A stretch of DNA of 28,225 bases, taken from IMG/VR virus record IMGVR_UViG_3300000117_000172, positions 1-28,225 of that record; one strand, written 5' to 3'. Position numbers and translations under genes: made by a program. This document shows, piece after piece, positions 8,144-26,678 of the stretch; position 1 is the stretch's first letter; every line of letters starts with the position of its first letter. Under the pieces are notes generated by a model, which was not told the DNA's origin, made no database searches, and saw only the letters and a program-made list of their open reading frames with translations. The DNA comes from a virus.

Positions 8144-11100
8144 ATGCAAGATCAACAAAATAACCAGCAAAACGCTATGCAACAAAGGCTAATGCAGGCA
8201 AAAGATCTGTATAAGCAAAAGACCGGCGTGGACTTTGAGAGCAAGCCTGAAGACGCTGGGCCAGCCGTGGCCGTTGCTGAGCCACCTGTGGTAGAAAAGC
8301 AGACTCCCGAACCCGAAGCAATTGTTCCGCAGCAACAAGCTCCGCAGCAACAAATGAGTGCTACGGATTTGTTTCAGCAAAGAGCGATCGAAAGGTGGAA
8401 CAAAAAGGTTGACGTTGAGGAAGGCTTTAAGCTTGAGTCAAAGTTCTACAGAAAAGACAGGAAAGAAAAGCCCGAGCAGGAAATGCCGAAAGAGGGTGAA
8501 TACTTTCTTGATGCGGACGGCCAGCTTCGACGAAGAGAATCTGGCATGTTTCACCCAACCCCAGAACAGGAAAAGGGCCGAACTTTACAAGACAAAAAAG
8601 AAGAGGAAATTAGAAAAAGAAACATGGAGATAGGCAACTTTAGTAAAGTTGTTCCAGATTCTTACGCAAGCCCTAACACAGAAGCCCAAAGAACTAAGCG
8701 TTTAGATAAAGAGTTAAAAGAATACTGGGCCAAGAAAAAGGGAACCGCACCGCTAGAAACTCCTGAAATTCCAGAAGGAATGTACATGGGTTTGGACGGC
8801 CTGGGCCATTTCTACAATACCGACACAAGAGTTTCCAAGGAGGAGTTCAAAAAAGCCAATCCTGATGTAGATATTGACAGAATACAAGGCGAATACTTTG
8901 CTGGAATTATGCAAGAAGCAAAGGAAGGTCAGCTTAAGTTTGCCGGCAAAGGAAGTGCAGTTTCGGGGGACGAGCAAAGCTGGGGAGGGTATCTTGGCTC
9001 AAAGACTCCTTGGATTGGATCGGCAATGGAGATTGGGGCGTTGTTGGCTCTCAAGCCTCACTTTGATGCGATCGAGGACGGCACAGCCACAAAAAGAGAT
9101 TACGTTGTTGCTGGTCGATACTTGGCAGAGCTGGAAAAAGAAGAAGGAAAAGGTTGGTGGCGTGGCGTTGGGGACATCGTTGCCGACATGCCGGCATTCA
9201 TGATTGAATTTGCAGCTGCCGGAGGCGGTGTTGCGACTACAGCTGCCAAGAAGGGACTGAAGACTGCGATTGAGTCGGGTGCGAAGATGACCGCTAAAGA
9301 GCTTTTAAAAGCTGGCGGCAAGGTAGCGGCAAAAGGTGCAGCCAAAATTGGCAAAGTTACCCTCAAGCAGCCGCACAGGATAGCAGAAGCTGCCGTCCGT
9401 GAATCAATGCCAGAGCCGACATACGACGAAGCAACAGGCAGGGTTACTTTTGAGGGTGGCTCTGATAATTGGGTGAGAAATGCTGTAAAAGGAACGCTTG
9501 ATACTGGAATCGAGACAGCTTCGGAAATGTCTGGTGGCTACACTTTGCCAATTATTGGCAAAGCAATGGGCCAGGCTGTGAAACCAGTAAAAAAGGTGCT
9601 TAATAAGGTTGCGCCAAAAACTATTAAAGGTGCGCCTAAGCCTGCAAGGCTAGACAAGAAGATGTGGACGCACGAGATAGCTGCACTGCAAATGAAGGCC
9701 CGTGTCGCTGTGCAGAAAAAGATTAACAAGATTGCAAATCCAAAAGTTCGGGAAAGCATACAAAAGATTCTTAATGCTGGCGGTTACAACGGCATCTTTG
9801 AGGAATATAGCGAAGAGCGATTGGCAGAGCTACTGAGAAAAGCAACGGCGTTGTCCGATTACACTGATCTGGACACAGATTTGGGACAGACTGGCGAGTT
9901 TTTCCAAGGTGCATTTGATGTTGCAACGGCAGGCAATTGGCAAAAGCTTGGCGACTTTGGCTATCACTCTGCACAGCAGCTGGCTGCGTTTTCGGTTTTT
10001 CCAGCTGGAAGTATGGCAGCAGAAGGCTTGTCTCAGTTAGATCGCTTCCCGACCTCAAGGCAGTGGGACGAGCTTGTTATGGGGGGTGACGGAACTGGTT
10101 GGTCACCAAGTCGAAAAATAAGAAAACAGCAGTGGGAGGCAACAAAGAAAGCTCAAGAGGCCATGAGGGCTGGATCTGCTCCTATTGCAAGGGTTCCCCA
10201 AAGAGAAAAAGGTCCTAAAGCTGGTTTAACAAGAGGAGCGATTTTTGATAACCCGCAACCTGATTTGAAAATTGATCACGGAAAGGATGTCCCGACTAGG
10301 AATTTGTATGATGCGGAAGGAAATCCATACGAGCAAAAAGGAGTAGCAAAAGATGTAGCTGAAAAAGCAAGGAAAGCTGCTCAACAAAAACAAACAGAGT
10401 CTCGGGCAGCGGAAGGTACGGTCAGGCTTTCTCCCGAGGCCGCAGCTGTTAAAAGACGGCAAGAGTTAGAAGAATACAAAAAGAGTAAAGCTGCCAAGCA
10501 AGCAGCAGCAGAGCGAGAAAAACTGAAAACCAAAAGGGAAGCTCGGCTTGATAAGCTACCAGCTGAAGAAAAGCAGTGGATCAAAGACACCGAAAAACTT
10601 ATCAAGTCAGTTCCAATTTTTGAAGGTTCGGAAGTTGACGTTGACATTGTTGACGGCAAAAAAACGGCCACGGTTACGCGGGAAGACGACAGGTCTGTTG
10701 TATTCCACTATGACAAAACCAGAACAGACAGTATTTTCTGGAACCCCAAGCCGATGGCTGGTGCGCCAAAAGGGCAAATTCATTTATCGTCAGACGCAAG
10801 CCATACCGACATTAACAAGCAAGCGATTCCGTGGTTGGTTGCTGAGGGAGTTGTGTCGCAAGAGGAAATCCAAGCTTACCCGAACTTAGCCCAAGATTAT
10901 GCTAAGTGGGCTAATAAAAGGTCGCTTAAAAAGGCCAAGATGGAAAAGGCCACTCCGCTCCAAAAAGTGTTTCAAAAAATATACGACTTTTTAGAGCCAA
11001 TCTTTGCACTGCAAAACAATCTTTTCAAGGATCTGGAAAAGCGTCGATCAAAAAGCTTGATGACAGACGAAATGCAGGAAGCGATTCATGTGGCACAGGA

Positions 11101-14100
11101 TTCATTTCTTGCTAATTCTTTGCGAGGGAAAACGCCACCTGCAATGCCTGGCTCAAACAAACCGCCAAAGCAACCACAGACTTACAAGAGTGGAAAACCA
11201 AGACCTGTTTGGAACCCACGCGAGCCAGCAACAAAAGCAGAGCAAAAGGTTGCTGATTTTATGAAAGCTCGTGGCAAAAAGTTTGCGTTTCTCGACACCC
11301 CAAGAGAAGCAACTGAGCCAGCTGGTGTACACATGACTGAATCGGGGTACGTCTTTTTGTTTCAGGGGCTTGCAGATCAGGTGAATCGGGATTTCTTGAC
11401 TGGCAAAAACCTGTTGTGGAACGTGCTAGGCCATGAGGTTGCCCACCAAACAAAACTTGACGCGGCAATGCCTTACAATTCCAAGTTTTATAGGGCAAGA
11501 AGAAAGCAATGGCTAAAGTTAAATTCAAAACTTGACGCTTATAGGGGCTTTGCTGAAAACGCTGGGGAGCTTGATCCAAGTATTCCTCGGGAAGACTGGT
11601 CATACGAAGAACGGCAAATTGGAAGAGAGGTCCAAGCCACCCTGGCTGGCGATTTTATGAGCAATCCGTTTTTTAGAAAAATGGTTAAGCAAAAAGAGCC
11701 TGGGGTTTACGAAAAGCTTAGAAAGAAAATTTTGCAATCAGCTAACAGCTGGGGGCCGCAAGATCAAGCTAAAGAAATGGTGCTTGCAGAGTTCCGCAAG
11801 ACCAAGGGCGAGAAAAAGCCGGTTGAGAAAAAGCCTCTTACTACTGAACAGATTCAAATTATCTCAAGGGCATTTAAAGAAAAGGAAGAAAAAGATCCAC
11901 TTGCTGTAGGGACTGGGTTTTTTGCAAAAGAAAATCCTAGCTTAATCAAAAAGCATTTTAAGACTGTAGATAACTTTGACACAGCTGCCTTTGATTACAT
12001 GATGATGCTTGATGCTGATAAAGCAAAAAGAGATATGGAAAGGGAAGAGGGTAAGAAAAAATCAGCTGGGTTAAAAGAAAAGGTCCTTCAAGGTCAAAAG
12101 GCTTTAAAAGATCAATCGCTGAAGGAGTATTACCAAAACCATCCACACAGGAAACTGATCCCAACCAGAGAAGAAGATGTGGTCGAGGTTTGTTTGATTG
12201 GCTGTGCCGCCAAGAAGTTTAAAGGCTGGCACAAAGGCATTGACTTGTACGACTCAAGGCCATTCAAGCAAAACGTAGAATATGCCGAGGGGACCGGAAT
12301 GCCTTGGGGTATACTCTCGGCAAAATTTGGGTTCATGGACCCATACCGAGAATACCACGACTATGACGCTGAGCTTGACACTAAAGAAAAGAGAGATGCT
12401 TTTGGGCCGAAAGCTGTTGAGCGTGTGTATGAACACCTAAAGAACCTTGGGGTTGACGTTGAGAATAGGCAGATCAAGTTTACGATTACAGCTCCAAAGA
12501 ATTACGCAAAAACCTTTGATGACTTTAGAGACTTCACGCACGAAGTTGAAATCCCGATGGAGGGGATGGGGCAAGGCAAGCGGAATCAGTGGCTAACTGA
12601 GCAGATTAAAGAGCAAAAATCCTTAGCAAAAGCAAAAAAAGATCCAGTTGAAGCGGAGAATTTAGCCAATAATCTTGCAGCGATTGAAAGAGAAAGGGTT
12701 AAGCGGGAAGCAGAAGCAAAAAAAAGGCAGCTGCCAGATTACTTTACAAGGGATGGTAATGACAATAAGCAGTCGTTTATTGAAATGCTTGATCAAATTT
12801 CAAGGGAAGATCCCAAGCAATACAATAAAGCAATTCGCGAACCTCTTCAGGACTTTATGCTTGGCATTAAAACTCCCGAAAATTCCGAAGTGGCAAAACT
12901 TGAAGGAGGCCAGTTAGACTCTCTCGCGCAGTCTTTAGTAAACCCTGTCCAGGAATGGCTTTTTGATTGGAATCAAGAAAATCTTCCTATGCTTCAACTG
13001 GACACTATAGAAAAATTGGCAAAGGCGTTAGCTGTTGAGCTTAACAAAACTCAAACTAAACAAATTCCATTTAGTGATTACGTGCCTGCTGAGCGTAAAG
13101 ATCAAGTTTACGAACTGTTGCTAACTGACTTTATATCTGGCTCCGGATTGCCTGTTCCTCTGATGCGAGCAGTTAGAGCCGTGGCTCCTGAGATTGCCGA
13201 TGACGCTAATTTTGAAAATTATCATGACGCGATCATTGGGAGAAAGGGCGGGCTTTACAAAGATAAGTTTAAGCCTAAAGATCCGGCTGCTAAGGATGTT
13301 GTTGGGCAGCTTGTAGATAAAGGCGACTACTTGGAAATTCCAAAAGGTTTGACCTTAGATTCGACCGTCAAATACAGTGACGAACAAACTGCTTTGTATG
13401 ACAAGGCCATAATTGCCATTAAGTTGGCAGACACTGCTTTGAAAAACGCCAATGAATCAGACAACTCTTTTTACAGTGAGGCAGGAGAGGCCGCTCAAAA
13501 TTACTTCGACGGCATAGACATCGAAAACAAAGAAAATGAAAAGCTTGGCTTGCCAGCTGTCAATGATCCTTATGACGGTGATTGGGACTATCTTACTGAA
13601 ACAATTAATCAGCTTTTGAATGAAAATTCTGGGCTTGAAGACAAAGGCGATTACATTGAGATTCCCTTTGAATTTAATTTTTTAAGGGCGCGTCCTATTG
13701 CCGAAGAACCACCGCCTATTGAGAAGCAAGCAGGGGATGCGGCTTATGAGGCAGAGAAACTTTATGTCAAACACACTAATGAAATGCCAATTGAAGATGT
13801 TGCCAATCTCGCTGACGAGGAAGTAATGTCTGATCTCGGGGATCTTATAGAAGACTCTTACATTGAAGCGTATGGTGGTGTGCCTTGGGGTGAAGATGCG
13901 GATGTTGAAGATTTTGAGCGCGACGCTTGGGATTGGAATGTTGAAGACAAAGGTAAAGTTTTAGATAAGCTTGAACTGACTGTTTTTAATTATTACCAAA
14001 AGCTTGTGGAGGCTAAACAAGATCCAGCAGAACTGGAATCTTACGACGACATAGAGGGAGAGCAGGAAGAAGAGCAGGAAGAAGAGCAGGAAGAAGAGCC

Positions 14101-17100
14101 TCAAATTTATACTGACGAAGACGGGGATATAAAGTATGACAGGTTAAGCGATGCCGCTTTGTATCGAATGATTACGAACGAGGGCAGGCTAGACAATAAA
14201 GAGTCAAGAAAGGAATTTTCTAAAAGAGGTGTAAACTACGGCGGGGTCCAAGTTTATATGGGATTTGACGAAATCCCTTCAGAGGTTCGCAATGCTAAAA
14301 AACTTTTAGATTGGATTGACGCATCAATCAAGGTTGGTGATGCCAAGGATTCGTTAAGCAAGGCAGTCAAGAAATACGCCTTTGAGCTGGATAATCTAAT
14401 TGTTAAAGAAGCACAAAAACTTGGCGTTCCAAAAGGCCGAGGAAAGCTTGGTTTGTCTAAGGCAAAAAAATACTTGGAGATGCTGAAAAAAGCGGAAGAG
14501 GCGGCTGAAAAAAATCCTAAGCTTGACAAGCTAAGAAATAATATTGAACAGGCTGAGCAAGAGCTAGAAAAAGCTGCCGGTGCGGACGAAAAAGCAGAGT
14601 ATGAATTTTATTCTGCAATAGACACAGCAGATGTTGATTGGAAAAAGGAGCGGCCTGACATAGATTTTATTGGAACAAAGTCTCTTAAAGGTGAAAAACT
14701 GGTCAGGCTTAAAGGTCTTACAAAATCCTTTTACATGGATTACCACGGCAGCAAAATGTATTGGCAAGATGATGTAAAGCTTGGAGAGTTTGATAAGAAA
14801 AAACGAAAATATGAAGTCACGGATTTGTTAAACAATCCAATTGGGTTTTTAAGCCGCTGGGAAATTGCCAATGATTATATGACAGAAGAGCAAGCAGAAG
14901 AGCAACGCATCCTTGTGAGCGACCATCATCAGGCCACAATTGAGTCACAGAAAATTAAAGACAGCAAAAAGCCTAAAAAGAAGCTTGTTAAAGAAGTTTC
15001 TCTTAAAGAAAGAAGGCAAAGCATTAGAGAGAAAGATCCGGCTCCCAGCTGGTTTGCTGGCTTAAAGACTGAGGCAAAAAAAATTAAGGCAAAGACCGCA
15101 AAGGACATTGAGCTTAGCGAAACAAGACTAGGAGAAATTCCAAAATCAACACTTAAATACTTTGACGGCAAAGCGCAAATTTGGCGATACGAGGGATTGT
15201 TTTCAGGTTACACTCGTAGGCCAAAATGGGCTTTAATTAACTCTTACCATGAAGCAGGTGGAGTTAAAAAAGGCGAAAAGCATTTAATGTACATTCCGGA
15301 TATGGAAAGTCCTAAAAGCAATAAAGAAGAGAGAAAACCGATTTACGTTGCGACTTTTGATGGGCCTTTAAATGCAAAGCATTTTTCCCAAATGGTAGAA
15401 AGGTTAGGCGTAAACGCACACACTGCTTTGGTCGGAGAAATGTCAGATGACATGAAGGCAGAGCAAAGAAAAATGCAAGCCGTTTATCAGACGTTTGTTG
15501 AAATGAGTCAAAACAAAGATTTCAACATCTACATGTTAGAAAAGGCTTTTACTGAAGAAATTGACATCCAGCGGCTGAAAAATATTCGTCCGTACATGCC
15601 CAGTCCGGAGATTGAGGCAGACATATACCTAGATGCTATTGATCTTGGTGATCAGGGCCTAAGAGGCAAGATGAGCAAGGTTGGCTTGGCTAAAGTTAAA
15701 GAGCTTGCCAAAGTTGCTCCTGAGTTTAGCTATAATCCGGTTTTTGTCGTAAACCAAAACTACGATCTTGAGTTCCAGGGATTTACTAATTTTAAATTTA
15801 GACTGGATCTGTTTAACCTTGAAGTTGACGAAGTAAAGGTTGGGCAGACGGTTGGCATCAATCTTCCCTCTATTGGGGTAAAGAAGATTACGAGCCAGTC
15901 TGATGCAGAAGAAAAGATAATTAAATTTATTAAGGGCTTTGCTGCATTTGGGGATTCTGAAGCTAAAGCAATAATATCAAAAATCCCGTTTGACTCTAAA
16001 AAACTGCAAAGGGAAATACTGGGTCAGCAAGGAAAGCTTGAACAAGCATCTGTTGATTACAACAAAATGCAAGCAAGAGAAAAGGTTCGCATCGCAAAAG
16101 AGCAGCAGCTGCCAGACGACTCACCTGACATTCGGTCGTCCTATCAGTTAAGGCCGCCTTCAAAAGGACAAAAGGCAAAGCCGCAAGGAAGTCCAGCTCG
16201 CGTTCCACAGCCAGGATCTAAAGGTCTTAAGCCGCAAGGCCCGCTAAGCAACGCTGCCATAAATCAGCTCTTCGGATTGCAGGGTCCAGAGCTTTACAAG
16301 ATTGCAAAGATATTGATGGCTGGAGGTCCTTTAGATGTCAAAAAGTTGCGTGGCGCACACGGAATGTTCCGTTATGAGGTCGGCACGACAAACATGGACA
16401 TTTTGATAAATCCAACTACAGCTCAAGACGAGCAATCATTGCTTCAGACATTGGCTCATGAAATTGGTCACCTGATTGATTACGTTCCTGAGCTGCTTGC
16501 ATTGTCTAAGAAGAACAACAAAGGGAATCTGCTTGCAAGGCTTGAAGTGCTAAGCAACATGGTTAGTAAGAAGCAAGGGTTCTTGCCGTACATGGCTGAA
16601 AAAGACAGGAAAAAAATTAGAAGACAAGCCGAGAAGCAGGCTGGTCCAAACGCAAGTCAAGAGGCTATTCAGCGAATTTACGAAGACATGCTTATATCGC
16701 AAGGCATACTTCCTCTCACAAGAATCAGGCGAGAGCTAATAGAAGTCACAAAGGCTTGGAGTGGTGATTACACAGGTCTTCCTAAATGGTACGTCAATTA
16801 CCGAGAAAGTCCGGCAGAGTTGTACGCAGAAGCATTGTCAATGTTTTTGAATAGTCCAGGCGACCTCGAAAGCATGGCTCCGACCTTTTACAACGCTCTC
16901 ATAGGCTATATGAACCGGAATCCCGAGTTTTTAGATGCTTATTCAGATGTTCAGCTGATGATGAATGGCAGCTCATCGGACTTGACAGCTCAAAGAACCG
17001 CAGATTTAAGAAAAATGTACCGCGATGCTGGCGCACATATTCATGCTTTAGGGGAGGAAAAGAAAAAGACTGCAAAAGACATGGCCCGTGGTACGGTGTC

Positions 17101-20068
17101 GTTCTTAAGTCAATACGGTCTGGATAAGCATGCCGCCGTCACCCTGAAAATGGGCCGCAGAAGCCCTGTGGGAGTTAATCAGGCAGACAAAGATGCAGCA
17201 AGGTTTGCCTTGGATGAGCTGTTCACCATGAACTCGGACAACAATAAATTTGTTCGTGAGGTAAAAGATACAGTCGTTGATCCGTTGAAAAAGTATTACA
17301 TGGAAAACGGCACTAGAGAAATAGGGAAAATGACAGAAGCAGAGGCAGGGTATCACGCTCAAGATGACCTTGGATTCTTTCTGTTCAGGCAAAGAGTTGC
17401 CAATGGAGATCGACAAGACAAGGCAAATCCTTACGCAACTACGCCGACATCGGCAAAGCAAGACCTGGTAAACATGGAAGCTAGGCTTGGCACAGACGCT
17501 TACGATGAGCTTCAAAAGCTTGCTTTAAAGTTTCACGATCTTGTTTTTGAGGCGAGCGAAAATGCTGTGGAAGAGGGCGTGTACAGCCAGCAAGCAATGG
17601 ACGAGATCATTGAGCCAAACAGGGATTACTATGCCGCGTTTAGGGTTACGAAGTACATAGAAGACCCAATGTACATCCCAGCTGGAATAATGAAGCAAGT
17701 TGGTACGTTTGATGGCGTTGAAAACGTGTTTCATTCAACCATGCTTAAAGTTATCTCCTTGAATCGTTTGACAAAGCTTAATAAGGCTAAAAACAGAGTC
17801 AGAGTTTTCTTGCAAAACAATTTTTCAGACGAAATAACAAAGGTCCCGACTGTTTACATAGGGCCAGGCAAGCCAAGGGAGCCAAAAGGGAAAGCGAAAG
17901 CTGGTTACGAACGAATAGTTGAGCTTGTTGATGGCAAGCCTGTTTGGTGGGAAGTTGATAAGTCTATTGCAAAGTCGTTTGAAACGTCAGATATAGGCGG
18001 TCTTGACACAGTAAGCGGATTCCTGAACTCGACAACCTACAAGCTTTTTCACCCGTTGTTTGTGACGTACAACCCTGGCTTTATAATTAAAAACCCAGTA
18101 AAAGACCTTCGCCGAACGTATGTTAACCTTGGCTCAATTTACAAGGTCAGCATGCTGGAATTGTTCGCCGAGCAGATTAAAGCTGTCCCAGCTGCGTATC
18201 GTCGCACCAAGGGCATTCTTGATCCAGTTGTAAAAGACATGCTGGACTCTGCGGCAATTGACATTCCGTTTGTTGGAAGAGACGCTGGCAAGCGGATGTT
18301 GCAAAGTGAGGAAAACAGCCTAGTTGCCTACGAAAACATGCTTAAAAATGCAGGGCTGGTGGAAATACGCAAAGGGCGGCTGGAAAGCATTCCGTATCTT
18401 GGAGTGGTTTTTAGAGCGTTAGAAGCAGCTGGCGAAATTACCGAGACAGCCACAAAAATTGCTGGTTGGCGAGTAATGGAAAAACGAAATGTCCCAATTC
18501 AAGAGAGGGCGTTTAACGTGCGAGCTTATGTTGGAACACCTGATTACAAAAAGTCAGGTCTTGCAACCTCGATTACTAACAGTGTTGCTATGTATTCGCG
18601 AGTGAAGTGGAACGGTTTGCAGGCCGACATGAACCTTGCGTTTCACTCAGACACCGCCTCGGGATGGTGGTGGAGACAGCTGATTACGACGATCATGCCA
18701 ACTTCATTCACCAAGCTTACGGCCTACGGTGGAGGGTCGGCGTTAATGTACTTTATGCTTGGGCTTGATCCAGACGACGAAGAAGACATGGACAGCCTTG
18801 CTGGAAAGACCGTTACGTGGTTCTATGAAAATTACAGACGATACGGTTCGTACTGGACTCGGGCCTATGATCAAATACCACTTGGACTTGACGAAAATTT
18901 AAAAGCTTTGTTTCTTTCAATTCCTCGCGACGAAACAAGTAAATTGGTTGCAACGGCCTACGACCATTTTACGGACCTAATAATGATTAGTCTCGGGCAG
19001 GACATTAGATCGGGAAAAACCACAGGACAGGTTGCCCGTGATCTTTTGGTGGGAACAACTTGGGACGCTGCGGCTCCGTCATTGTCGCCCACTCTTTTAA
19101 TTGCTGCTAAGCATAAAGATTATTTGCTAGACATACAGCCTTATGACGATTTTAGAAGCAGGCATATTGTCCCTGACCTTCACTGGCAAGCAGGTGGTTA
19201 TCACTCCCAAATTAAAATGGCTGAATGGACTGCTCAGCAATTTGGCGCGCCTGGGCAAGCGGCTGGCTATCTTTTAAGTCTGGCTGACGGGTCTGCATCT
19301 GAAACAACCGTTACCGAATCTGCGTTAGAGGCGGCTGGTGCATTGACTGGAATTGGATCTTTAATTCGACGCACCGATACGGGAATTAACGAAGAGGAAT
19401 ACGCAAGAATTGAGGTGCAGCAAAGGCATGACGCTCAGTTTAAATTAAGCTTGCCCGCCAAGGCTCGCAAATTGGCATCCAGCCTTTGGCTGTTGAATCA
19501 AAAGGAAAGCTCGACAAAGCGTGGTTTGTCTGAAGAAGACAGAAAACGAAAATACGATTTAGCTTTGTTTCAAAATTATGTTTACGAGCCAGCCAGGATG
19601 TCTATTAGAGAAGCTGATCTTGCAGAAAACAAAGCAGAAGCAAAATCGTTGCGTAAATCACTAGGGGATACAGCCAAGTTAGCAGACAAAGGCCAGCTGC
19701 CTACGCTGGCAAAGTTTGATGGAAAAGAAAAAGATGATCTTACGTGGGGATTGTCTAATGTTGCGTACCAAGGCGCGCAAGCCTTTCCAGAAAGGCAAAA
19801 CTACACAAGCAAAACAAATTTTGAAGAGGCTGTTGTTGAATACAAAGAAAGTCAGCAAGCCATGATTGAAAGAATGAAACATTTCTTTCCATCAGAAAAA
19901 GTCGCCTTGAATGCGTTAATGTATCATTTCTTGTTTAACAGGGTTGACGACAACGGCAAGCCGACCAGAACTAAGTACGAAATTAAGTATTTAGAAGCAT
20001 ACGGTAAGCGCCAGAAACAAATACAACGGCTTTATCGCACTCCAAACAAAGGACTTAAGCAAAAGTAA
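8144..20068 (+). CDS. Giant polyvalent virion protein (two HExxH metallopeptidase motifs, DUF6884-like, LPD38-like), 3974 residues
   Basis: One uninterrupted frame covers 42% of the window. Seen in order: a Gln-rich start; Ala/Gly-rich hydrophobic helices near residues 290-410 and 585-630; a zincin motif HEVAH at 1097-1101; a DUF6884-like domain at ~1345-1460 (VCLIGCAAKK, then ILSAKFGFMDP); an acidic repeat at 1973-1985; and a second zincin motif HEIGH at 2772-2776 with the downstream PAELYAEALSMFL signature near 2890. A C-terminal LPD38-like region (~3300-3560) has YNPGFIIKNPVKDLRRTYVN and a hydrophobic stretch near 3515-3540. Proteins of this kind in phages and plasmids are proposed to be packaged and delivered to the host, where the peptidases release or modify domains. 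Delivery and protease activity are inferred; no polymerase, helicase or methylase motif was found. Confidence 0.85.
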   Translation: MQDQQNNQQNAMQQRLMQAKDLYKQKTGVDFESKPEDAGPAVAVAEPPVVEKQTPEPEAIVPQQQAPQQQMSATDLFQQRAIERWNKKVDVEEGFKLESKFYRKDRKEKPEQEMPKEGEYFLDADGQLRRRESGMFHPTPEQEKGRTLQDKKEEEIRKRNMEIGNFSKVVPDSYASPNTEAQRTKRLDKELKEYWAKKKGTAPLETPEIPEGMYMGLDGLGHFYNTDTRVSKEEFKKANPDVDIDRIQGEYFAGIMQEAKEGQLKFAGKGSAVSGDEQSWGGYLGSKTPWIGSAMEIGALLALKPHFDAIEDGTATKRDYVVAGRYLAELEKEEGKGWWRGVGDIVADMPAFMIEFAAAGGGVATTAAKKGLKTAIESGAKMTAKELLKAGGKVAAKGAAKIGKVTLKQPHRIAEAAVRESMPEPTYDEATGRVTFEGGSDNWVRNAVKGTLDTGIETASEMSGGYTLPIIGKAMGQAVKPVKKVLNKVAPKTIKGAPKPARLDKKMWTHEIAALQMKARVAVQKKINKIANPKVRESIQKILNAGGYNGIFEEYSEERLAELLRKATALSDYTDLDTDLGQTGEFFQGAFDVATAGNWQKLGDFGYHSAQQLAAFSVFPAGSMAAEGLSQLDRFPTSRQWDELVMGGDGTGWSPSRKIRKQQWEATKKAQEAMRAGSAPIARVPQREKGPKAGLTRGAIFDNPQPDLKIDHGKDVPTRNLYDAEGNPYEQKGVAKDVAEKARKAAQQKQTESRAAEGTVRLSPEAAAVKRRQELEEYKKSKAAKQAAAEREKLKTKREARLDKLPAEEKQWIKDTEKLIKSVPIFEGSEVDVDIVDGKKTATVTREDDRSVVFHYDKTRTDSIFWNPKPMAGAPKGQIHLSSDASHTDINKQAIPWLVAEGVVSQEEIQAYPNLAQDYAKWANKRSLKKAKMEKATPLQKVFQKIYDFLEPIFALQNNLFKDLEKRRSKSLMTDEMQEAIHVAQDSFLANSLRGKTPPAMPGSNKPPKQPQTYKSGKPRPVWNPREPATKAEQKVADFMKARGKKFAFLDTPREATEPAGVHMTESGYVFLFQGLADQVNRDFLTGKNLLWNVLGHEVAHQTKLDAAMPYNSKFYRARRKQWLKLNSKLDAYRGFAENAGELDPSIPREDWSYEERQIGREVQATLAGDFMSNPFFRKMVKQKEPGVYEKLRKKILQSANSWGPQDQAKEMVLAEFRKTKGEKKPVEKKPLTTEQIQIISRAFKEKEEKDPLAVGTGFFAKENPSLIKKHFKTVDNFDTAAFDYMMMLDADKAKRDMEREEGKKKSAGLKEKVLQGQKALKDQSLKEYYQNHPHRKLIPTREEDVVEVCLIGCAAKKFKGWHKGIDLYDSRPFKQNVEYAEGTGMPWGILSAKFGFMDPYREYHDYDAELDTKEKRDAFGPKAVERVYEHLKNLGVDVENRQIKFTITAPKNYAKTFDDFRDFTHEVEIPMEGMGQGKRNQWLTEQIKEQKSLAKAKKDPVEAENLANNLAAIERERVKREAEAKKRQLPDYFTRDGNDNKQSFIEMLDQISREDPKQYNKAIREPLQDFMLGIKTPENSEVAKLEGGQLDSLAQSLVNPVQEWLFDWNQENLPMLQLDTIEKLAKALAVELNKTQTKQIPFSDYVPAERKDQVYELLLTDFISGSGLPVPLMRAVRAVAPEIADDANFENYHDAIIGRKGGLYKDKFKPKDPAAKDVVGQLVDKGDYLEIPKGLTLDSTVKYSDEQTALYDKAIIAIKLADTALKNANESDNSFYSEAGEAAQNYFDGIDIENKENEKLGLPAVNDPYDGDWDYLTETINQLLNENSGLEDKGDYIEIPFEFNFLRARPIAEEPPPIEKQAGDAAYEAEKLYVKHTNEMPIEDVANLADEEVMSDLGDLIEDSYIEAYGGVPWGEDADVEDFERDAWDWNVEDKGKVLDKLELTVFNYYQKLVEAKQDPAELESYDDIEGEQEEEQEEEQEEEPQIYTDEDGDIKYDRLSDAALYRMITNEGRLDNKESRKEFSKRGVNYGGVQVYMGFDEIPSEVRNAKKLLDWIDASIKVGDAKDSLSKAVKKYAFELDNLIVKEAQKLGVPKGRGKLGLSKAKKYLEMLKKAEEAAEKNPKLDKLRNNIEQAEQELEKAAGADEKAEYEFYSAIDTADVDWKKERPDIDFIGTKSLKGEKLVRLKGLTKSFYMDYHGSKMYWQDDVKLGEFDKKKRKYEVTDLLNNPIGFLSRWEIANDYMTEEQAEEQRILVSDHHQATIESQKIKDSKKPKKKLVKEVSLKERRQSIREKDPAPSWFAGLKTEAKKIKAKTAKDIELSETRLGEIPKSTLKYFDGKAQIWRYEGLFSGYTRRPKWALINSYHEAGGVKKGEKHLMYIPDMESPKSNKEERKPIYVATFDGPLNAKHFSQMVERLGVNAHTALVGEMSDDMKAEQRKMQAVYQTFVEMSQNKDFNIYMLEKAFTEEIDIQRLKNIRPYMPSPEIEADIYLDAIDLGDQGLRGKMSKVGLAKVKELAKVAPEFSYNPVFVVNQNYDLEFQGFTNFKFRLDLFNLEVDEVKVGQTVGINLPSIGVKKITSQSDAEEKIIKFIKGFAAFGDSEAKAIISKIPFDSKKLQREILGQQGKLEQASVDYNKMQAREKVRIAKEQQLPDDSPDIRSSYQLRPPSKGQKAKPQGSPARVPQPGSKGLKPQGPLSNAAINQLFGLQGPELYKIAKILMAGGPLDVKKLRGAHGMFRYEVGTTNMDILINPTTAQDEQSLLQTLAHEIGHLIDYVPELLALSKKNNKGNLLARLEVLSNMVSKKQGFLPYMAEKDRKKIRRQAEKQAGPNASQEAIQRIYEDMLISQGILPLTRIRRELIEVTKAWSGDYTGLPKWYVNYRESPAELYAEALSMFLNSPGDLESMAPTFYNALIGYMNRNPEFLDAYSDVQLMMNGSSSDLTAQRTADLRKMYRDAGAHIHALGEEKKKTAKDMARGTVSFLSQYGLDKHAAVTLKMGRRSPVGVNQADKDAARFALDELFTMNSDNNKFVREVKDTVVDPLKKYYMENGTREIGKMTEAEAGYHAQDDLGFFLFRQRVANGDRQDKANPYATTPTSAKQDLVNMEARLGTDAYDELQKLALKFHDLVFEASENAVEEGVYSQQAMDEIIEPNRDYYAAFRVTKYIEDPMYIPAGIMKQVGTFDGVENVFHSTMLKVISLNRLTKLNKAKNRVRVFLQNNFSDEITKVPTVYIGPGKPREPKGKAKAGYERIVELVDGKPVWWEVDKSIAKSFETSDIGGLDTVSGFLNSTTYKLFHPLFVTYNPGFIIKNPVKDLRRTYVNLGSIYKVSMLELFAEQIKAVPAAYRRTKGILDPVVKDMLDSAAIDIPFVGRDAGKRMLQSEENSLVAYENMLKNAGLVEIRKGRLESIPYLGVVFRALEAAGEITETATKIAGWRVMEKRNVPIQERAFNVRAYVGTPDYKKSGLATSITNSVAMYSRVKWNGLQADMNLAFHSDTASGWWWRQLITTIMPTSFTKLTAYGGGSALMYFMLGLDPDDEEDMDSLAGKTVTWFYENYRRYGSYWTRAYDQIPLGLDENLKALFLSIPRDETSKLVATAYDHFTDLIMISLGQDIRSGKTTGQVARDLLVGTTWDAAAPSLSPTLLIAAKHKDYLLDIQPYDDFRSRHIVPDLHWQAGGYHSQIKMAEWTAQQFGAPGQAAGYLLSLADGSASETTVTESALEAAGALTGIGSLIRRTDTGINEEEYARIEVQQRHDAQFKLSLPAKARKLASSLWLLNQKESSTKRGLSEEDRKRKYDLALFQNYVYEPARMSIREADLAENKAEAKSLRKSLGDTAKLADKGQLPTLAKFDGKEKDDLTWGLSNVAYQGAQAFPERQNYTSKTNFEEAVVEYKESQQAMIERMKHFFPSEKVALNALMYHFLFNRVDDNGKPTRTKYEIKYLEAYGKRQKQIQRLYRTPNKGLKQK
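14060..14098 (+). repeat. Tandem 12-bp repeat (GAGCAGGAAGAA x3) inside the giant gene
   Basis: Three perfect in-frame copies of GAGCAGGAAGAA followed by a partial GAG encode an EQEE repeat in a very acidic linker (residues 1973-1985). Unit length is a multiple of three, so copy-number change would keep the frame. It probably acts as a flexible acidic spacer between domains. Confidence 0.85.
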
Positions 20069-20179
20069 CAGCACTTTGCTTGCATGAAAAAAAGTTTCTT
20101 CTGTCGGCTTGACTTAGTTTGTTTAGCCAGGGTAACCTTGGGCAACCAAGTTTACACAGGAAGTTTTTTGGAGGAACGA
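20069..20179 (+). promoter_or_regulatory. csrA leader: GCAA-loop hairpin and three GGA motifs; possible weak promoter
   Basis: This 111-base gap separates the virion and early genes. A hairpin CTTGG-GCAA-CCAAG (20137-20150) has a GNRA-type loop. Between it and the csrA start are ACAGGAAGT (GGA at 20159-20161) and TTGGAGGAACGA (GGA at 20170-20172 and 20173-20175), the last being the ribosome site. CsrA proteins bind GGA, often at the Shine-Dalgarno, so autoregulation is plausible. A TTGACT at 20109-20114 could be a -35 box, but no convincing -10 follows at 16-18 bases, so the promoter is uncertain. Confidence 0.45.
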
Positions 20180-20350
20180 ATGCTTGTTTTATCGAGACGG
20201 GTGCTTGAAGAGATTGTTATCAATTCAAACATCAAAGTCACTGTCTGCGAGATAAACGGAAACCAAGTCCGTATCGGAGTTGAGGCTCCGAGTAATGTCT
20301 CAATCTTACGAGGTGAGCTTTTAAATCACGGAGGCAACTCCGATGACTAA
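20180..20350 (+). CDS. csrA: CsrA/RsmA-family post-transcriptional regulator, phage-encoded
   Basis: 56 residues starting MLVLSRR, the canonical CsrA N-terminus, with GNQVRIGVEAP at 27-37 and SILRGEL at 41-47. The residues known to contact RNA are present: L4 and R6 in strand 1 and R44 near the end of strand 5. CsrA dimers bind GGA motifs in mRNA leaders and alter translation or stability. I chose the ATG at 20180 because it gives the family start and has GGAGGAACGA just before it; an in-frame ATG at 20084 would add 32 unrelated residues. The last 8 bases overlap the next gene. As first gene of the early block it could redirect host Csr control and regulate phage messages; that role is inferred. 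Confidence 0.93.
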   Translation: MLVLSRRVLEEIVINSNIKVTVCEINGNQVRIGVEAPSNVSILRGELLNHGGNSDD

Positions 20351-21407
20351 AGAAAGACTTACTCACAGCCGGATGCAGTCGTTTAAGCTGTGCCGCAAAA
20401 AGCATTATTACGAATACGAAGTAGGCATAAGGAAAGAAACGGACGCAAAGGCGTTGCGAATGGGCCACGCTGGTCACGAGGGCCTAGATCGGCTTAAGAA
20501 GGGCGGTCTGATTGATTGGGCATGTCGCGCCGTTGAGGAAGAGTACGCGCATTGTCCACCAGAAATATGTCAATACGACTGGCATATTGAGAAACAGACA
20601 ATTTTAACCCTTCTTCAAATGTACAATTGGTATTGGCACGGCTCAGACCCGTTTGATGTAATTATTTCAGAAGCATCGTTTGAATTTCCGCTTCGCAACC
20701 CAAAGACAGGATATGCGGCAAGGAACTTTGGTAGAGCTGGTAAAATTGACGGCATTATCAATCTCAATGGAAGGAAGCTTGTCCTGGAGCATAAGTTTTT
20801 GGGCGAGGACATAACCTACGGTGGCAGCTTTCTTGAAAGGCTTCGCTTGGATCAGCAATGCACAAACTACATTGATGCAGCCAACGATGTGTTCGGCGAT
20901 GTTGATGGTGTGATTTACGATTTGATTCGCAAGCCGACGATTCAGCCAACCGCAATTCCTGTGCTGGACAAAGACGGCAAGAAGATTGTCATAGATTCAA
21001 CCACCGGCGAACGTGTTTACAACAAAGACGGCAAAACTTATCGCCAGACAGCTGACAAAAAGCTTGGCTACGAGATTATTACTCGTGACATGACTGTTGA
21101 AGAGTGGGGCTTAAAGCTTGCAGTTGATATAGAAAAACGGCCCGAATTTTATTTCCAGCGTCATGAAATAGCTCGCTTGGAAAGCGACATGCAAGAGTTT
21201 CGGGAGGAGGTCTGGCAAATACAGCTGGACATCAGAAGCCACCAGCGATCTGGCAACTGGTACAAGACGGTAAACAAAGGCAGCTGCACGTACTGCCCGT
21301 TTACCTCGTTGTGCTTAAATAGATCGAAGATCGACAAAAACACTCAGCCCCACGATTACCCTGAAGGGTTTATTAAGCTCGAAGATGTTCATCCGGAGCT
21401 GGGCTGA
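20343..21407 (+). CDS. PD-(D/E)XK nuclease of Cas4/RecB-like type with Fe-S cysteines
   Basis: 354 residues. The nuclease core shows GKIDGI with D136, then LVLEHK with E149 and K151, the D...ExK signature of PD-(D/E)XK enzymes, followed by a Q-x-Y-like helix at 171-176 (QQCTNYI). One Cys near the N-terminus (C17 in FKLCRKKHYY) and three at the end (C315, C318, C324 in CTYCPFTSLC) fit the 4Fe-4S cluster of Cas4/AddB-type exonucleases. The N-terminal S..Q.FK.CrkkhYy pattern is also typical. It probably resects DNA ends or makes 3' single strands for the Sak4-like annealing/recombination protein two genes on. ATG overlaps csrA by 8 bases, with GGAGG upstream. Confidence 0.88.
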   Translation: MTKERLTHSRMQSFKLCRKKHYYEYEVGIRKETDAKALRMGHAGHEGLDRLKKGGLIDWACRAVEEEYAHCPPEICQYDWHIEKQTILTLLQMYNWYWHGSDPFDVIISEASFEFPLRNPKTGYAARNFGRAGKIDGIINLNGRKLVLEHKFLGEDITYGGSFLERLRLDQQCTNYIDAANDVFGDVDGVIYDLIRKPTIQPTAIPVLDKDGKKIVIDSTTGERVYNKDGKTYRQTADKKLGYEIITRDMTVEEWGLKLAVDIEKRPEFYFQRHEIARLESDMQEFREEVWQIQLDIRSHQRSGNWYKTVNKGSCTYCPFTSLCLNRSKIDKNTQPHDYPEGFIKLEDVHPELG

Positions 21408-21724
21408 TGTTGTTTGATAAATTTTCACAAAATGACCCAAAGCCATTGGATTCTAAGTTTGATGGTAGTGATTACGAAGACAAGGTAGACCGCCGAAGAT
21501 TGGCTGGTCAGATCTTGCGAGTCTATGAGTGTATGAAAGATGGGCAGTGGCGAACGGTAAATGAAATTCATCAAGTTACTGGCGACCCACACGCTTCTAT
21601 TAGCGCGCAGTTAAGGAATTTGCGTAAGCCGAAATTTGGTTCTTACAATGTTGTGAAGCAAATTAGAGGTGAACGAAAAGATAGTTTGTACGAGTATCAA
21701 CTTTTAACCCAAAAAGGAACGTAG
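21407..21724 (+). CDS. Winged helix-turn-helix phage protein, 105 residues
   Basis: Starts in a TGATG overlap with the nuclease gene. Residues ~30-100 match a winged-helix layout common in phages: an alpha-helical part (ILRVYECMKDG), the HTH around 'TVNEIHQVTGDPHASISAQLRNLRKPKFG', and a wing ending in a tyrosine-rich strand (SLYEYQLL). The 'TGDP.ASIsa.LRdLRK.kfG' core is a recurrent small phage family. It likely binds DNA, as a regulator or replication accessory protein; which is unknown. The N-terminal 25 residues are acidic and probably disordered. Confidence 0.78.
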   Translation: MLFDKFSQNDPKPLDSKFDGSDYEDKVDRRRLAGQILRVYECMKDGQWRTVNEIHQVTGDPHASISAQLRNLRKPKFGSYNVVKQIRGERKDSLYEYQLLTQKGT

Positions 21725-21726
21725 TT

Positions 21727-22611
21727 ATGTCAACAGCACCAAAATCTGGCAGCAGGCCAGCAAGCAGCCGGTCAACCCCAGTTGCAGCTTCAACGAAGCA
21801 TCCCGTTTTGTCGCCGGTTAAGTCAGGCGTTTTGAAAGGAGTCGTCGCAAATCAGGGCGAAAGGATTGGTTTGTATGGAAGTGGTGGCATTGGAAAAACT
21901 GAGCTGGCATCCTCGCTGGCAAAAGTCGCCATAGATCCATTATTCATTGATCTTGACCAAGGCAGCATGGGCCTTGACGTATCCAGGGCGGTCGCTGGCG
22001 AGGACCAGCATTTAGTAAGGACTTTTAATGAGGTGCGATCGGTACTTCAGGACCGCGAGCTTATCTCCCAGTTTGGGGCCGTAGTGATCGACACGTTTAC
22101 TACCCTTGAAGACAGGATTCGCGATCACGTTATTGCGACAGTTCCTCACGAGAAGGGCAAAAAGATCAGCTCGATCGAAGATTATGGGTTCGGGAAAGGC
22201 TTGTCTCATGTCTTTGACCAAGCACTTTTAATCCTCAGCGATCTTGAGGCGGTTTGCCGAATGGGTGTGCATGTTGTTGTGATTTGCCACCAAGTTTCAG
22301 AGAAGGTTCCCAGCGTTGAATCTGAGGACTTCTTGGAATACCAGCCGCGTTTGCAATCTCCAGCAAAGACCGCAAAGCTTCGGGAGCGTATGTTCGAGTG
22401 GTGCAATCATTTTTTCCGAGTTGACTTCGATCGTTTTGTTGACGGAGGCAAGGTTGCCTCAACAAACAAGCGAAGCATTCATACTGTTAAAACAACAACG
22501 GCGTGGGCCAAGCATCGAACGATGCCGAACGGCAGGCAGTTCCCAGAGCTAATTGATTTTGAAAAAGGATCGTTTGATTTGTGGGACATTATGTTTGGAG
22601 GTGCAAAGTAA
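21727..22611 (+). CDS. Sak4-like / AAA_24-type RecA-fold ATPase (recombination)
   Basis: 294 residues with a disordered Ser/Pro-rich start (~30 residues). Walker A is GSGGIGKT at residues 51-58, Walker B is AVVIDTFT with D122, and a strand ending in VVICHQ (183-189) matches the sensor region of RecA-fold ATPases. Size and motifs fit the phage Sak4-type single-strand annealing/recombinase group (AAA_24). These usually sit beside an exonuclease and an SSB, exactly as here, and promote homologous pairing or annealing during phage replication. The ATPase fold is firm; Sak4 membership should be tested by profile search. Stop and next start overlap (TAATG). Confidence 0.85.
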   Translation: MSTAPKSGSRPASSRSTPVAASTKHPVLSPVKSGVLKGVVANQGERIGLYGSGGIGKTELASSLAKVAIDPLFIDLDQGSMGLDVSRAVAGEDQHLVRTFNEVRSVLQDRELISQFGAVVIDTFTTLEDRIRDHVIATVPHEKGKKISSIEDYGFGKGLSHVFDQALLILSDLEAVCRMGVHVVVICHQVSEKVPSVESEDFLEYQPRLQSPAKTAKLRERMFEWCNHFFRVDFDRFVDGGKVASTNKRSIHTVKTTTAWAKHRTMPNGRQFPELIDFEKGSFDLWDIMFGGAK

Positions 22612-22967
22612 TGGTTTCAGGCAATATCCCACCAAAGGGCGGTCGAGTTGACACTGCCGCCGAAGTGAAAAGCTCAGCCGCTGAAGTGCTTAAAACATTT
22701 AAAGAAGCTCTGAAAGAGCAGAATAATTTAGGCAGTGATCTGGAAAATTTGCGGGCAATTAGCAATATCGCCTACCATTATGCGAACGAAGTCGAGCAAC
22801 GCTTTTTAGAAATAGCTCGAAAAAATGATTCTGCATACTCAGATTCGGCAACTAAAGCTGACGAGGGAGAGAGATCAATTGAGTATATTGTGACAAAGGT
22901 TGGTGCGGCAGTTGTGCAGATCTGGTGTTCGGATCTGCATATTGGGATCGAAGCTGAAAACAACTAG
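22611..22967 (+). CDS. Hypothetical early protein, 118 residues
   Basis: Start chosen at the ATG in the TAATG junction rather than an upstream in-frame codon inside the ATPase gene. Predicted mostly helical, with a charged coiled-coil-like middle (residues ~20-85) and a hydrophobic end (KVGAAVVQIWCSDLHIGIEA). No family recognised. It belongs to the recombination operon by position. Its 3' end contains an inverted repeat, and the gene is followed by the structured non-coding region. Confidence 0.7.
   Translation: MVSGNIPPKGGRVDTAAEVKSSAAEVLKTFKEALKEQNNLGSDLENLRAISNIAYHYANEVEQRFLEIARKNDSAYSDSATKADEGERSIEYIVTKVGAAVVQIWCSDLHIGIEAENN
22915..22939. repeat. 8-bp perfect inverted repeat within the 3' end of the preceding gene
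   Basis: TGCAGATC (22915-22922) and GATCTGCA (22932-22939) are perfect complements around a 9-base spacer. Both arms contain GATC. It could be an RNA hairpin upstream of the non-coding element, or an operator-like site, but it is inside coding sequence and no T tract follows. Function unknown. Confidence 0.55.
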
Positions 22968-22981
22968 GTCAGCTGTAATGC

Positions 22982-23054
22982 ACTCGCCTGGGCTACCTCA
23001 CGGATACCATCGGAGGATAGGCTGTCACAGGACACGATAGCGGTCTTGGCGAGT
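22982..23054 (+). ncRNA. Candidate structured RNA with four GGA motifs
   Basis: The gap after the 118-residue gene has no convincing ORF but folds by hand. ACTCGCC (22982-22988) pairs perfectly with GGCGAGT (23048-23054) and is followed by T5. Inside are a stem CCTC(A)CGG / TCG-GAGG with an ATACCA loop, and a hairpin TGTC-ACAG-GACA. GGA occurs four times within about 40 bases (CGGATA, CGGAGGAT, AGGACA). Repeated GGA in hairpins is the hallmark of RNAs that bind CsrA/RsmA, and this phage encodes CsrA 2.6 kb upstream. It could be a sponge RNA, a cis leader of the SSB-like gene, or just part of a double terminator. No known RNA family recognised. Confidence 0.42.
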
Positions 23055-23059
23055 TTTTG

Positions 23060-23150
23060 CGAAGCGGGTGGTTCGAGTAGTCTTTGGTCATGATCAAACA
23101 GTACGCTTGAGTAATGCAGCCCACCCGCTTCGTTTTTTTATTTTTTTTTA
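23060..23150 (+). terminator. Strong terminator-like element with 12-bp stem and large structured loop
   Basis: CGAAGCGGGTGG (23060-23071) and CCACCCGCTTCG (23121-23132) form a perfect 12-bp stem, followed at once by seven Ts, an A and nine more Ts. The 49-base loop is unusually large for an intrinsic terminator and holds its own hairpin (TTTGGT-CATG-ATCAAA, 23083-23098). The stem is 30 bases before the next start codon, so it would stop transcription into the SSB-like gene unless opened or bypassed. It may be the end of an independent RNA (from about 22982) or an attenuator. Confidence 0.75.
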
Positions 23151-23164
23151 ATAAGGATTTTGTG

Positions 23165-23707
23165 ATGCCATACATTGAAGAAGCAGGAACATTTCGTGGA
23201 GAGATCGTAGCTTATGGAGCGGAGGAAAAAGATTCCGGCAGTGTCGCTGTTAAAATTGAAGTTTTGATTAGCGATCACTTTTCTAACGGAGTTTGGAACG
23301 ATTGGTCTGAACACAATATGATTGCAACAGGCCGAGTCTGGCTGATTGGTAAAACCGGCAAAATTATTAAGCGAAATGCTGAAGCACTTATGAACTATGC
23401 CGCGTGGGACGGCACTTTTAAGTCAATTACCGATGGGAACTGGGAGCCTGACAAGGTTGGAATTACTGTAAAAGGTGAGGAATACCCCGAAGGATCTGGT
23501 AAAATTTTCTACAGGATTGAATGGATCAATCCCTTTGAAAAGAAAAGTCACGCTGGCAACGGAAGCTTTAGCGCAGAGCAAAGCAATGCACTGGACTCAA
23601 AGTTCGGAAGCCAGCTGCGTGGTCTTGCTTCGATCGCTAAGCCTAGTCCAGTTAACAAGCCGCCCGCAAAGCCAAGCAAGGCAGAGGATTCCGATATTCC
23701 ATTTTAA
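23165..23707 (+). CDS. Single-stranded DNA-binding protein-like, 180 residues
   Basis: The ATG at 23165 has AAGGATTTTGTG before it; the open frame upstream runs through the terminator and is not used. Residues ~1-125 are strand-rich, as in an OB-type fold (GTFRGEIVAYG, VKIEVLIS, KVGITVKGEEY, KIFYRIEWINP). A Pro/Ser/Lys-rich linker and an acidic tip EDSDIPF follow. That tip closely matches the conserved SSB C-terminal peptide (DDDIPF) used to recruit replication and repair partners. It sits with the Sak4-like ATPase and nuclease, so it most likely coats phage single-stranded DNA. The OB fold is inferred; overall similarity to bacterial SSB is not obvious. Confidence 0.75.
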   Translation: MPYIEEAGTFRGEIVAYGAEEKDSGSVAVKIEVLISDHFSNGVWNDWSEHNMIATGRVWLIGKTGKIIKRNAEALMNYAAWDGTFKSITDGNWEPDKVGITVKGEEYPEGSGKIFYRIEWINPFEKKSHAGNGSFSAEQSNALDSKFGSQLRGLASIAKPSPVNKPPAKPSKAEDSDIPF

Positions 23708-23944: not shown

Positions 23945-24369
23945 AACGTGAAATTGCTCCCGAGGATATTGACCTTGTTTTTAGTTTTCACCATAAGCAT
24001 CACCCAAGGGAAAAGCTGAATGCTGAAAAACGAAAGTTGATTCGCCAGCGGTTGAAAGACGGTTACACAATTTCAGATTTGCGAACAGCAATTCTTGGAA
24101 TTCACAACACGCCCCACAACCTTGGCGACAACGATCGCAGGACAAAGTACCTGGGTTTGCACGTTTCGCTGAGGCATGAAAATATCGACCGTTTTATTGA
24201 AACGGGAGAAGAGGTAATTAAGCGTCGAGAAAAATTAAAAAGAAAGAGGTTAAACAAAAACGCAAAAATTTCGCGACCGATTGCGGAAGAACAGGAAGTG
24301 TCCCAAGAAGAGCGAGAAAGAGAAGCCGCTGAATTCCGTGCGATGGTCAAAAAGGAGTTAAGGAAGTGA
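23941..24369 (+). CDS. Phage replication-initiation / helicase-loader-like protein, 142 residues
   Basis: Residues ~5-85 resemble the C-terminal domain of phage replication proteins (Phg_2220_C/O-protein-like): a hydrophobic helix, then KRKLIRQRLKDGYTISDLR, TAILGIHNTPHNLGDND and a tyrosine-leucine block ending in RFIE. In longer family members this domain follows a DNA-binding part and recruits helicase. Here it stands nearly alone, with a very basic/charged C-terminal helix (residues ~95-142) that could contact nucleic acid. Coupled to the upstream gene by ATGA. The family call is by pattern and moderately sure; which replication step it serves is inferred. Confidence 0.65.
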   Translation: MKREIAPEDIDLVFSFHHKHHPREKLNAEKRKLIRQRLKDGYTISDLRTAILGIHNTPHNLGDNDRRTKYLGLHVSLRHENIDRFIETGEEVIKRREKLKRKRLNKNAKISRPIAEEQEVSQEEREREAAEFRAMVKKELRK

Positions 24370-26659: not shown

Positions 26660-26678
26660 ATGGGTAAAAGAATTTTAG

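Follow-up and report, generated by a model that had tools for sequence, protein, structure and literature searches.

A folded RNA lies downstream of csrA in the phage genome analysed here, a 28,225-base IMG/VR virus record (IMGVR_UViG_3300000117_000172) that we refer to as the window. This RNA, domain 1 (22982..23058, plus strand), is a conserved structured RNA without a match in Rfam. We suggest that the csrA transcription unit ends with this RNA, a terminator whose two GGA hairpins could dock one CsrA dimer, and that the RNA would act as a feedback attenuator, as a CsrA-binding 3′ RNA, or as both; we give this reading a probability of about one half. The occurrence of an unnamed folded RNA and csrA in one gene cluster is suggestive of a small self-contained control circuit.

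The RNA is preceded by five plus-strand genes that overlap or almost touch. The first is csrA (20180..20350), whose 56-aa product, read from the ATG at 20180, matches PF02599 (E 1.8e-21; 76.3 bits against a cut-off of 27) and the CsrA-like PHROG 9500. It is followed by genes for a PD-(D/E)XK (Cas4-like) exonuclease (20343..21407; PF12705, PHROG 1218), a 105-aa ORF matching PHROG 25381, of unknown function (21407..21724), a Sak4-like ATPase of the ssDNA annealing type (21727..22611; PF13479, PHROG 124) and a 128-aa ORF without a family (22581..22967). A single ORF of 3974 aa occupies positions 8144-20068, directly upstream of csrA. The first gene past the RNA, also on the plus strand, encodes an SSB-like protein (23165..23707). 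Searches of Pfam, PHROG and PDB, the last also by profile, gave no sequence match for this protein. Its structure model (mean pLDDT 70.9) shows an OB-like fold, the chain ends in a C-terminal DSDIPF tail, and Foldseek returned PrgE (2.4e-4) and SSB (3.1e-4), with TM-scores of only 0.34-0.53. Assignment as an SSB therefore seems reasonable on the strength of the model.

Leu4, which we take to be an RNA-binding residue of CsrA, and Arg44 are both kept in the window protein, and are invariant in an alignment of seven CsrA sequences (A9). Arg44 is described as an RNA contact of CsrA in the portion of PMC4005645 consulted. The csrA leader (20156..20179, plus strand) carries GGA motifs that overlap the ribosome-binding site, in ACAGGAAGTTTTTTGGAGGAACGA ahead of the ATG. 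This may perhaps be a site of CsrA autoregulation; the evidence is weak because GGA can occur in any Shine-Dalgarno sequence.

The first-pass annotation had described a gap between the recombination genes and the SSB-like gene with two perfect inverted repeats and four GGA motifs, downstream of csrA. All of this was recovered. The gap runs for 197 bases (22968-23164) to the SSB-like ATG at 23165, and csrA ends 2.6 kb upstream of it. A perfect 7-bp repeat (22982-22988/23048-23054) is followed by T5 (23054-23058), and a perfect 12-bp repeat (23060-23071/23121-23132) by T7AT9 (23133-23149). The GGA motifs start at 23002, 23012, 23015 and 23030. Of mononucleotide shuffles, 3.2% reached four GGA in 81 nt, as did 4.3% of the 81-nt stretches in the window; the GGA density is thus by itself only mildly unusual.

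Domain 1 is predicted to fold as a three-way junction. The closing stem P1 (22982-22994/23042-23054) holds the hairpins P2 (22996-23002/23011-23016) and P3 (23021-23026/23036-23041), which are separated by J23, AUAG (23017-23020), and a U5 tract (23054..23058) lies directly 3′ of P1. The GGA at the P2 hairpin loop, within ACGGAU (23002..23004), and the GGA in the P3 hairpin loop, within ACAGGACAC (23030..23032), are candidate CsrA sites 1 and 2. In the predicted fold the first G of the P2 motif is paired; the P3 motif has a probability of being unpaired of 0.87-0.95 in the window. These are the two motifs for which a position next to a hairpin loop, as first annotated, was borne out. The GGA at 23012 is paired in P2, and that at 23015 (23015..23017) spans the border of P2 and the junction.

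The whole gap folds with a z-score of -2.94 (1 of 200 shuffles equally good), domain 1 alone with -1.88 (9 of 200) and the second hairpin with -4.48 (0 of 200). An alternative pairing of GGGCU with AGCCC (23119-23123) was rejected, being lost in the relative L003. In Rfam, nothing matched the gap RNA at gathering score, and permissive scans gave only unrelated weak matches. Neither hairpin of the gap was listed in a simple terminator scan of the window, because that scan allows loops of up to 8. The single-sequence evidence is moderate; the strong evidence is comparative.

Comparison of relatives yielded seven distinct sequences: the window, L002, L003, L156 (identical to L157 and L158), L159, L160 and L200. 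L002 and L003 were found by an ATPase search (ATPase 88% identical). When the window, L002 and L003 were aligned (A1), a core of 43 bases, GGGCTACC...CACAGGA, was identical and P1 changed in compensation; for scale, the window and L003 agree at 82% of third codon positions over the initial 390 nt of ssb. L156-L160 were found by a search with a 142-aa ORF and have the gene order of the window, csrA, exonuclease, ATPase and ssb, with csrA of L159 detected only by profile. Immediately ahead of ssb, L156, L159 and L160 carry a divergent copy of domain 1. We refer to the window, L002, L003 and L200 as type A, and to L156, L159 and L160 as type B.

A model, R2, was built from L156, L159 and L160 only, with a structure written by hand after folding these three. 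When it was run over 73 sources (731,806 bases), only L003 (E 1.5e-4), L002 (E 8.5e-4) and the window (E 2e-3) matched beyond its members and L157 and L158, all at the syntenic spot. Pairs were counted in an alignment of the seven sequences fitted to R2 (A8; 20 pairs, 139 cells), because MAFFT misaligned P2 and P3 between the types. Standard pairs made up 95.7% of cells, against 34-52% with partners slid by 1-3 positions; 12 of the 20 pairs changed on both sides, and none of 500 shuffles was as good on any of five measures, counts that lean towards the R2 structure and include related sequences. The minimum-energy fold alone was the junction in six of the seven sequences (window, L002, L003, L156, L160 and L200). 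L159 by itself formed P1 and P3 with another, smaller P2 that pairs part of its GGA. Fold z-scores were -4.14 for L003, -3.66 for L200, -2.65 for L160, -2.61 for L156 and -1.91 for L159.

The first-pass annotation had made its proposal depend on conservation and covariation in related phages. Folding, the match of the window to R2 (E 0.002) and the paired changes all point the same way: domain 1 is conserved and covarying, and GGA is kept at both loops. The size envisaged, about 170 nt, was not upheld, since what is conserved beyond the near relatives is a unit of about 75 nt.

Scanning 2.9 million viral contigs with a degenerate pattern yielded 59 stretches, including 56 loci not found before, four of which (L187, L206, L212 and L214) are other cuts of the L157, L159, L158 and L160 contigs. 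R2 gave one further good match among the 56, L200 (E 4.5e-5). The L200 core is identical to that of L003 at 48 of 55 positions in an ungapped alignment (68.9 bits, E 4.6e-9 at an assumed 60 Gb), and to that of the window at 46 of 55 (59.9 bits, E 2.4e-6, at word size 7); at the default word size of 11 the window core gave no match to L200. Six of the seven differences between L003 and L200 form three compensated pairs, which are ungapped and independent of the R2-fitted alignment. L200 is an otherwise different phage of 79 kb; here the csrA stop codon is immediately followed by the RNA, behind which come U7 and the next ribosome-binding site. In the 19.9 kb around the RNA, csrA (49%, E 2e-11) was the only window protein significantly matched (next E 0.055), the 3974-aa ORF being represented in this comparison by its first 700 and last 1200 residues. 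The gene after the RNA is ssb in the syntenic phages and an ORF of unknown function in L200, where we consider the start that follows AGGAG to be genuine. An open frame starting in the L200 csrA stop overlaps the RNA. The RNA thus lies on the same strand as csrA and downstream of it in two otherwise different phage groups.

Other matches did not add copies. We rejected as chance the pattern matches L152-L154 and L227-L232, and the R2 matches L203 (also read as DNA), L168, L181, L182 and L197 (E 0.44-0.45) and L173, L185, L188, L176 and L162 (E 3-8.5). None of 74 pattern matches in genome contigs was credible by R2 (one match, E 2.5). Model R3 was run on 392, 398 and 288 whole genomes, sampled from the phyla to which G019 (titled as a Planctomycetota MAG), G021 (Gilvimarinus) and G022 (a Limisphaerales MAG) belong, and no credible copy was found with 12-17 first-look candidates scored per genome under strict filters, a procedure by which weak copies could be missed. 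The R3 matches L233, L238, L239, L322 and L323 (21-33 bits) were considered chance, that of L322 lying antisense in a DEAD-box helicase-like gene; L234-L237 were lesser matches of this kind. Low-scoring matches judged by score alone were L277 (22.8 bits), L066 (17.8 bits), window positions 24264-24353 on the minus strand (14.7 bits), L015 (11.6 bits) and L012 (11.3 bits). The R2 scores of the window, L003 and L200 were 25.7-31.2 bits, and chance R3 matches in whole genomes reached 32.6 bits; the former therefore carry weight only through position and, in the case of L200, through blastn identity. The gap had no homologue among GenBank phages (a single record covering 11% of the query, E 4) or plasmids (17 records, 10-16% of the query each; best E 4e-3, at the T-rich, ribosome-binding end).

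GGA occurs at the loops of both hairpins in 7/7 sequences, with the P2 motif of type A and L159 partly paired in prediction. Type-B RNAs and L200 have three GGA each, and the window, L002 and L003 have four; two are at loops. The P2 loop has ANGGA in 7/7, and the P3 loop has ANGGA in the three type-B sequences and CAGGA in the four of type A. Apart from GGA the P3 loop differs between the types, ACAGGAMAC in type A and AAYGGAY in type B having little else in common. High-affinity CsrA sites are described as an ANGGAX hexaloop on a stem in the part of PMC4005645 consulted, and CsrA prefers GGA in hairpin loops according to an excerpt of PMC4347634; P3 of L156 is able to form such a hexaloop. 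We regard CsrA as the likely regulator: a dimer has two sites, and the RNA offers a GGA at each of two loops. Against docking of CsrA it counts that the first G of the type-A P2 motif is paired and that CAGGA in P3 is not ANGGA, and likewise that L159 folds by itself without the aligned P2 and with its GGA partly paired.

Conservation also extends beyond GGA, to more than CsrA would need, and this too counts against docking. All seven sequences share the same P1 base, GGCU/GGUC, which contains a G.U and a U.G pair; GGCUA and the partly paired GGAWAG at the P2/J23 border are likewise kept in 7/7. An attenuator or riboswitch-like element recognising a ligand other than CsrA, or a phage termination or antitermination factor, with csrA as its neighbour for other reasons, would account for these features, for the position ahead of the next gene's ribosome-binding site, and for the lack of the RNA at most of the phage csrA genes sampled. 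We nevertheless consider it unlikely, as the RNA belongs to no Rfam class, and the gene downstream differs between the syntenic phages and L200 while csrA upstream is common to both.

All eight RNA-bearing records that cover the csrA region (window, L003, L156, L157, L158, L159, L160 and L200) contain csrA; the L002 record begins at the ATPase gene and is thus uninformative. In the records covered the RNA therefore implies csrA, but the converse fails. Among 80 phage csrA loci (the best 80 of at least 519, chosen by protein), 79 gave no credible RNA match, the exception being the L003 contig. Of 67 sak4/ATPase loci, 36 had a csrA match, and within the stretches examined only L003 of these had the RNA. 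In 22 further records of ATPase relatives picked from the 67 loci, 20 had neither csrA nor a credible RNA and two had csrA only. The absence of the RNA from most of the sampled phage csrA loci counts against the CsrA-docking reading, as does the open frame overlapping the RNA in L200. As separate observations, csrA-like genes lie near a Sak4-like ATPase gene in many other phages (L025-L065) without the RNA in the stretch examined, and the L004 contig, which has csrA, ends before the RNA spot, with degenerate GACCAGCTTGGC-type repeats at its end (4260-4495) downstream of the ATPase gene. L004 CsrA is up to 68% identical to Planctomycetota CsrA, which gives only a hint of a Planctomycetota host.

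The first-pass annotation had likened the RNA to the multi-site sponges CsrB and RsmZ. This likeness was not supported, as each record searched whole (window, L003, L158 and L200) has one copy, with two loop GGA. Nor is an independent sRNA gene indicated, because in each distinct lineage no more than about 15 nt lie between a stop codon and the RNA and, in a simple sigma-70 promoter scan of the window, no plus-strand site was found between 22728 and 23292. A more modest possibility is an sRNA released from the 3′ end when transcription of the csrA operon terminates. It would chiefly titrate phage or host CsrA in trans, as a minimal relative of CsrB and RsmZ that binds one dimer. The loop GGA in 7/7, the U-tract end and the linkage to csrA would suit such an RNA, and E. 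coli RrB, which comes from a double-terminator region and has two of its five GGA in predicted loops, binds CsrA in vitro according to the section of PMC8144298 consulted. We think it improbable, since one copy with two loop sites gives low capacity, the window has no promoter-like site just upstream, and a position between two co-directional genes, found in each lineage, suits a cis element as well.

The second hairpin (23059..23149, plus strand), with its T7AT9 run, was found only in the window, L002 and L003, and is absent from the gaps of L156, L159 and L160 and after the L200 RNA. Comparison of the window with L002 and L003 showed that, of its 29 pairs, two changed on both sides, four on one side and one was broken. 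It is probably a back-up intrinsic terminator. Elsewhere in the window, minus-strand genes with ORF starts at 26661, 27032, 27373 and 28019 each have a terminator-like hairpin, a T-run and the common start region TTGGAGCGAA ahead of them, followed by TTATG in three and CTATG in one; the same arrangement is seen at two places in L003. Terminators placed gene by gene would imply readthrough or antitermination in this phage. As a caution, such predicted intercistronic terminators are general in the window genome, and with other units of hairpin, T-run and ribosome-binding site in the phage, the position before ssb need not be special.

These units in the same genome, the tandem arrangement of two hairpins with T-runs in the gap and the unremarkable GGA density are what would be expected of a plain intrinsic (double) terminator of the operon with GGA by chance. 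Such a terminator would require no three-way junction, nor would its loops and junction have to keep their sequence in phages that otherwise differ; yet L003 and L200 agree at 29 of the 36 core positions left free by the search pattern, with compensated changes in the stems. We therefore regard a plain terminator as very unlikely. The suggestion of a terminator or attenuator for the SSB-like gene, offered as the alternative in the first-pass annotation, was right in part, in that the RNA ends in a U-tract and precedes the next gene's ribosome-binding site.

Leaders of other genes were also seen. Upstream of csrA, L156 (about 546-617) and L160 (about 590-661) carry a nearly identical leader ending in T8, with GGGGA...UCCCC and a GCGG..CCGC hairpin whose loop could pair with ACGAC, as a possible pseudoknot. 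This leader had no Rfam match and was not more stable than shuffles (z -0.68). The ribosome-binding site of type-B ssb (L156, L159 and L160) is a conserved GAGATGGAGA of the ANGGA form, and could from its sequence itself be a candidate CsrA site.

In the reading that we favour, a csrA-linked terminator with docked CsrA, placement and structure are considered together. In each lineage a stop codon is separated from the start of the RNA by no more than about 15 nt. The RNA ends in U5-U8 and is followed by the ribosome-binding site of the next gene, with the second hairpin in between in the window, L002 and L003. Its neighbours in the syntenic phages are the csrA-exonuclease-sak4 genes upstream and ssb downstream. 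It looks like an intercistronic terminator or attenuator at the apparent 3′ end of the csrA unit. P1 followed by U5 to U8, present in every distinct sequence, would be an intrinsic terminator that closes the three-way junction and holds out the two GGA hairpins. If csrA and the RNA share a transcript, one phage CsrA dimer, with its two identical RNA sites, would most likely clamp both hairpins. Clamping may stabilise the junction and favour closing of P1, so that termination would occur when CsrA is plentiful, or the sign could be the reverse. A short 3′ RNA with CsrA bound to it would remain after termination. In this way the element would serve as a feedback attenuator, placed after csrA and the recombination genes and before the gene that follows (ssb in the syntenic phages), with a possible secondary role as a small CsrA-binding decoy. 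More tentatively, at least two different phage groups may carry a minimal Csr circuit on one transcript, consisting of csrA and a dimer-clamped terminator that senses its own CsrA.

In the literature consulted on phage CsrA, mostly as partial texts, we found no description of how a phage sets its own CsrA level. A dedicated conserved RNA downstream of csrA makes the question testable with one RNA of about 75 nt and one protein of about 60 aa. If a circuit of this kind exists, the RNA would be a CsrA-dependent intrinsic terminator and, as far as searched, the first phage-borne cognate RNA for CsrA. If the terminator is under CsrA control, protein-clamped termination would be added to the modes of CsrA action reviewed in PMC4347634, as far as the part of that review consulted goes. 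Even if CsrA is not the ligand, the RNA is a new covarying motif of phages.

Phage-encoded CsrA/RsmA proteins have been described, and are proposed to manipulate host physiology and CRISPR-Cas and to dampen host defence (PMC8450108, in part). The phage csrA gene is common to that account and ours; the portion consulted deals with proteins, with no associated phage RNA, and no phage RNA partner of CsrA was found in the mostly open-access texts consulted, in part, on phage CsrA/RsmA proteins and CsrA sponges. CsrB and CsrC, and RsmX, RsmY and RsmZ, resemble the phage RNA in having GGA at hairpin loops and a link to Csr. CsrB has 18 sites and CsrC nine (PMC4347634, excerpt), whereas the phage RNA is one compact junction with two loop sites; and the sRNAs of this type are free-standing genes, whereas the phage RNA sits downstream of csrA between two genes. 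Similar by description are RrA, RrB and RrF of E. coli rRNA operons, small RNAs of an operon-end dual-terminator region with two GGA predicted in loops, for which CsrA binding in vitro has been shown (PMC8144298, in the section consulted). These RNAs lie between two terminators, whereas the phage GGA element itself bears the first U-tract. With intrinsic terminators in general the phage RNA shares a closing stem and a U-tract, but here the stem is the base of a three-way junction in which both the loops and the junction itself are conserved.
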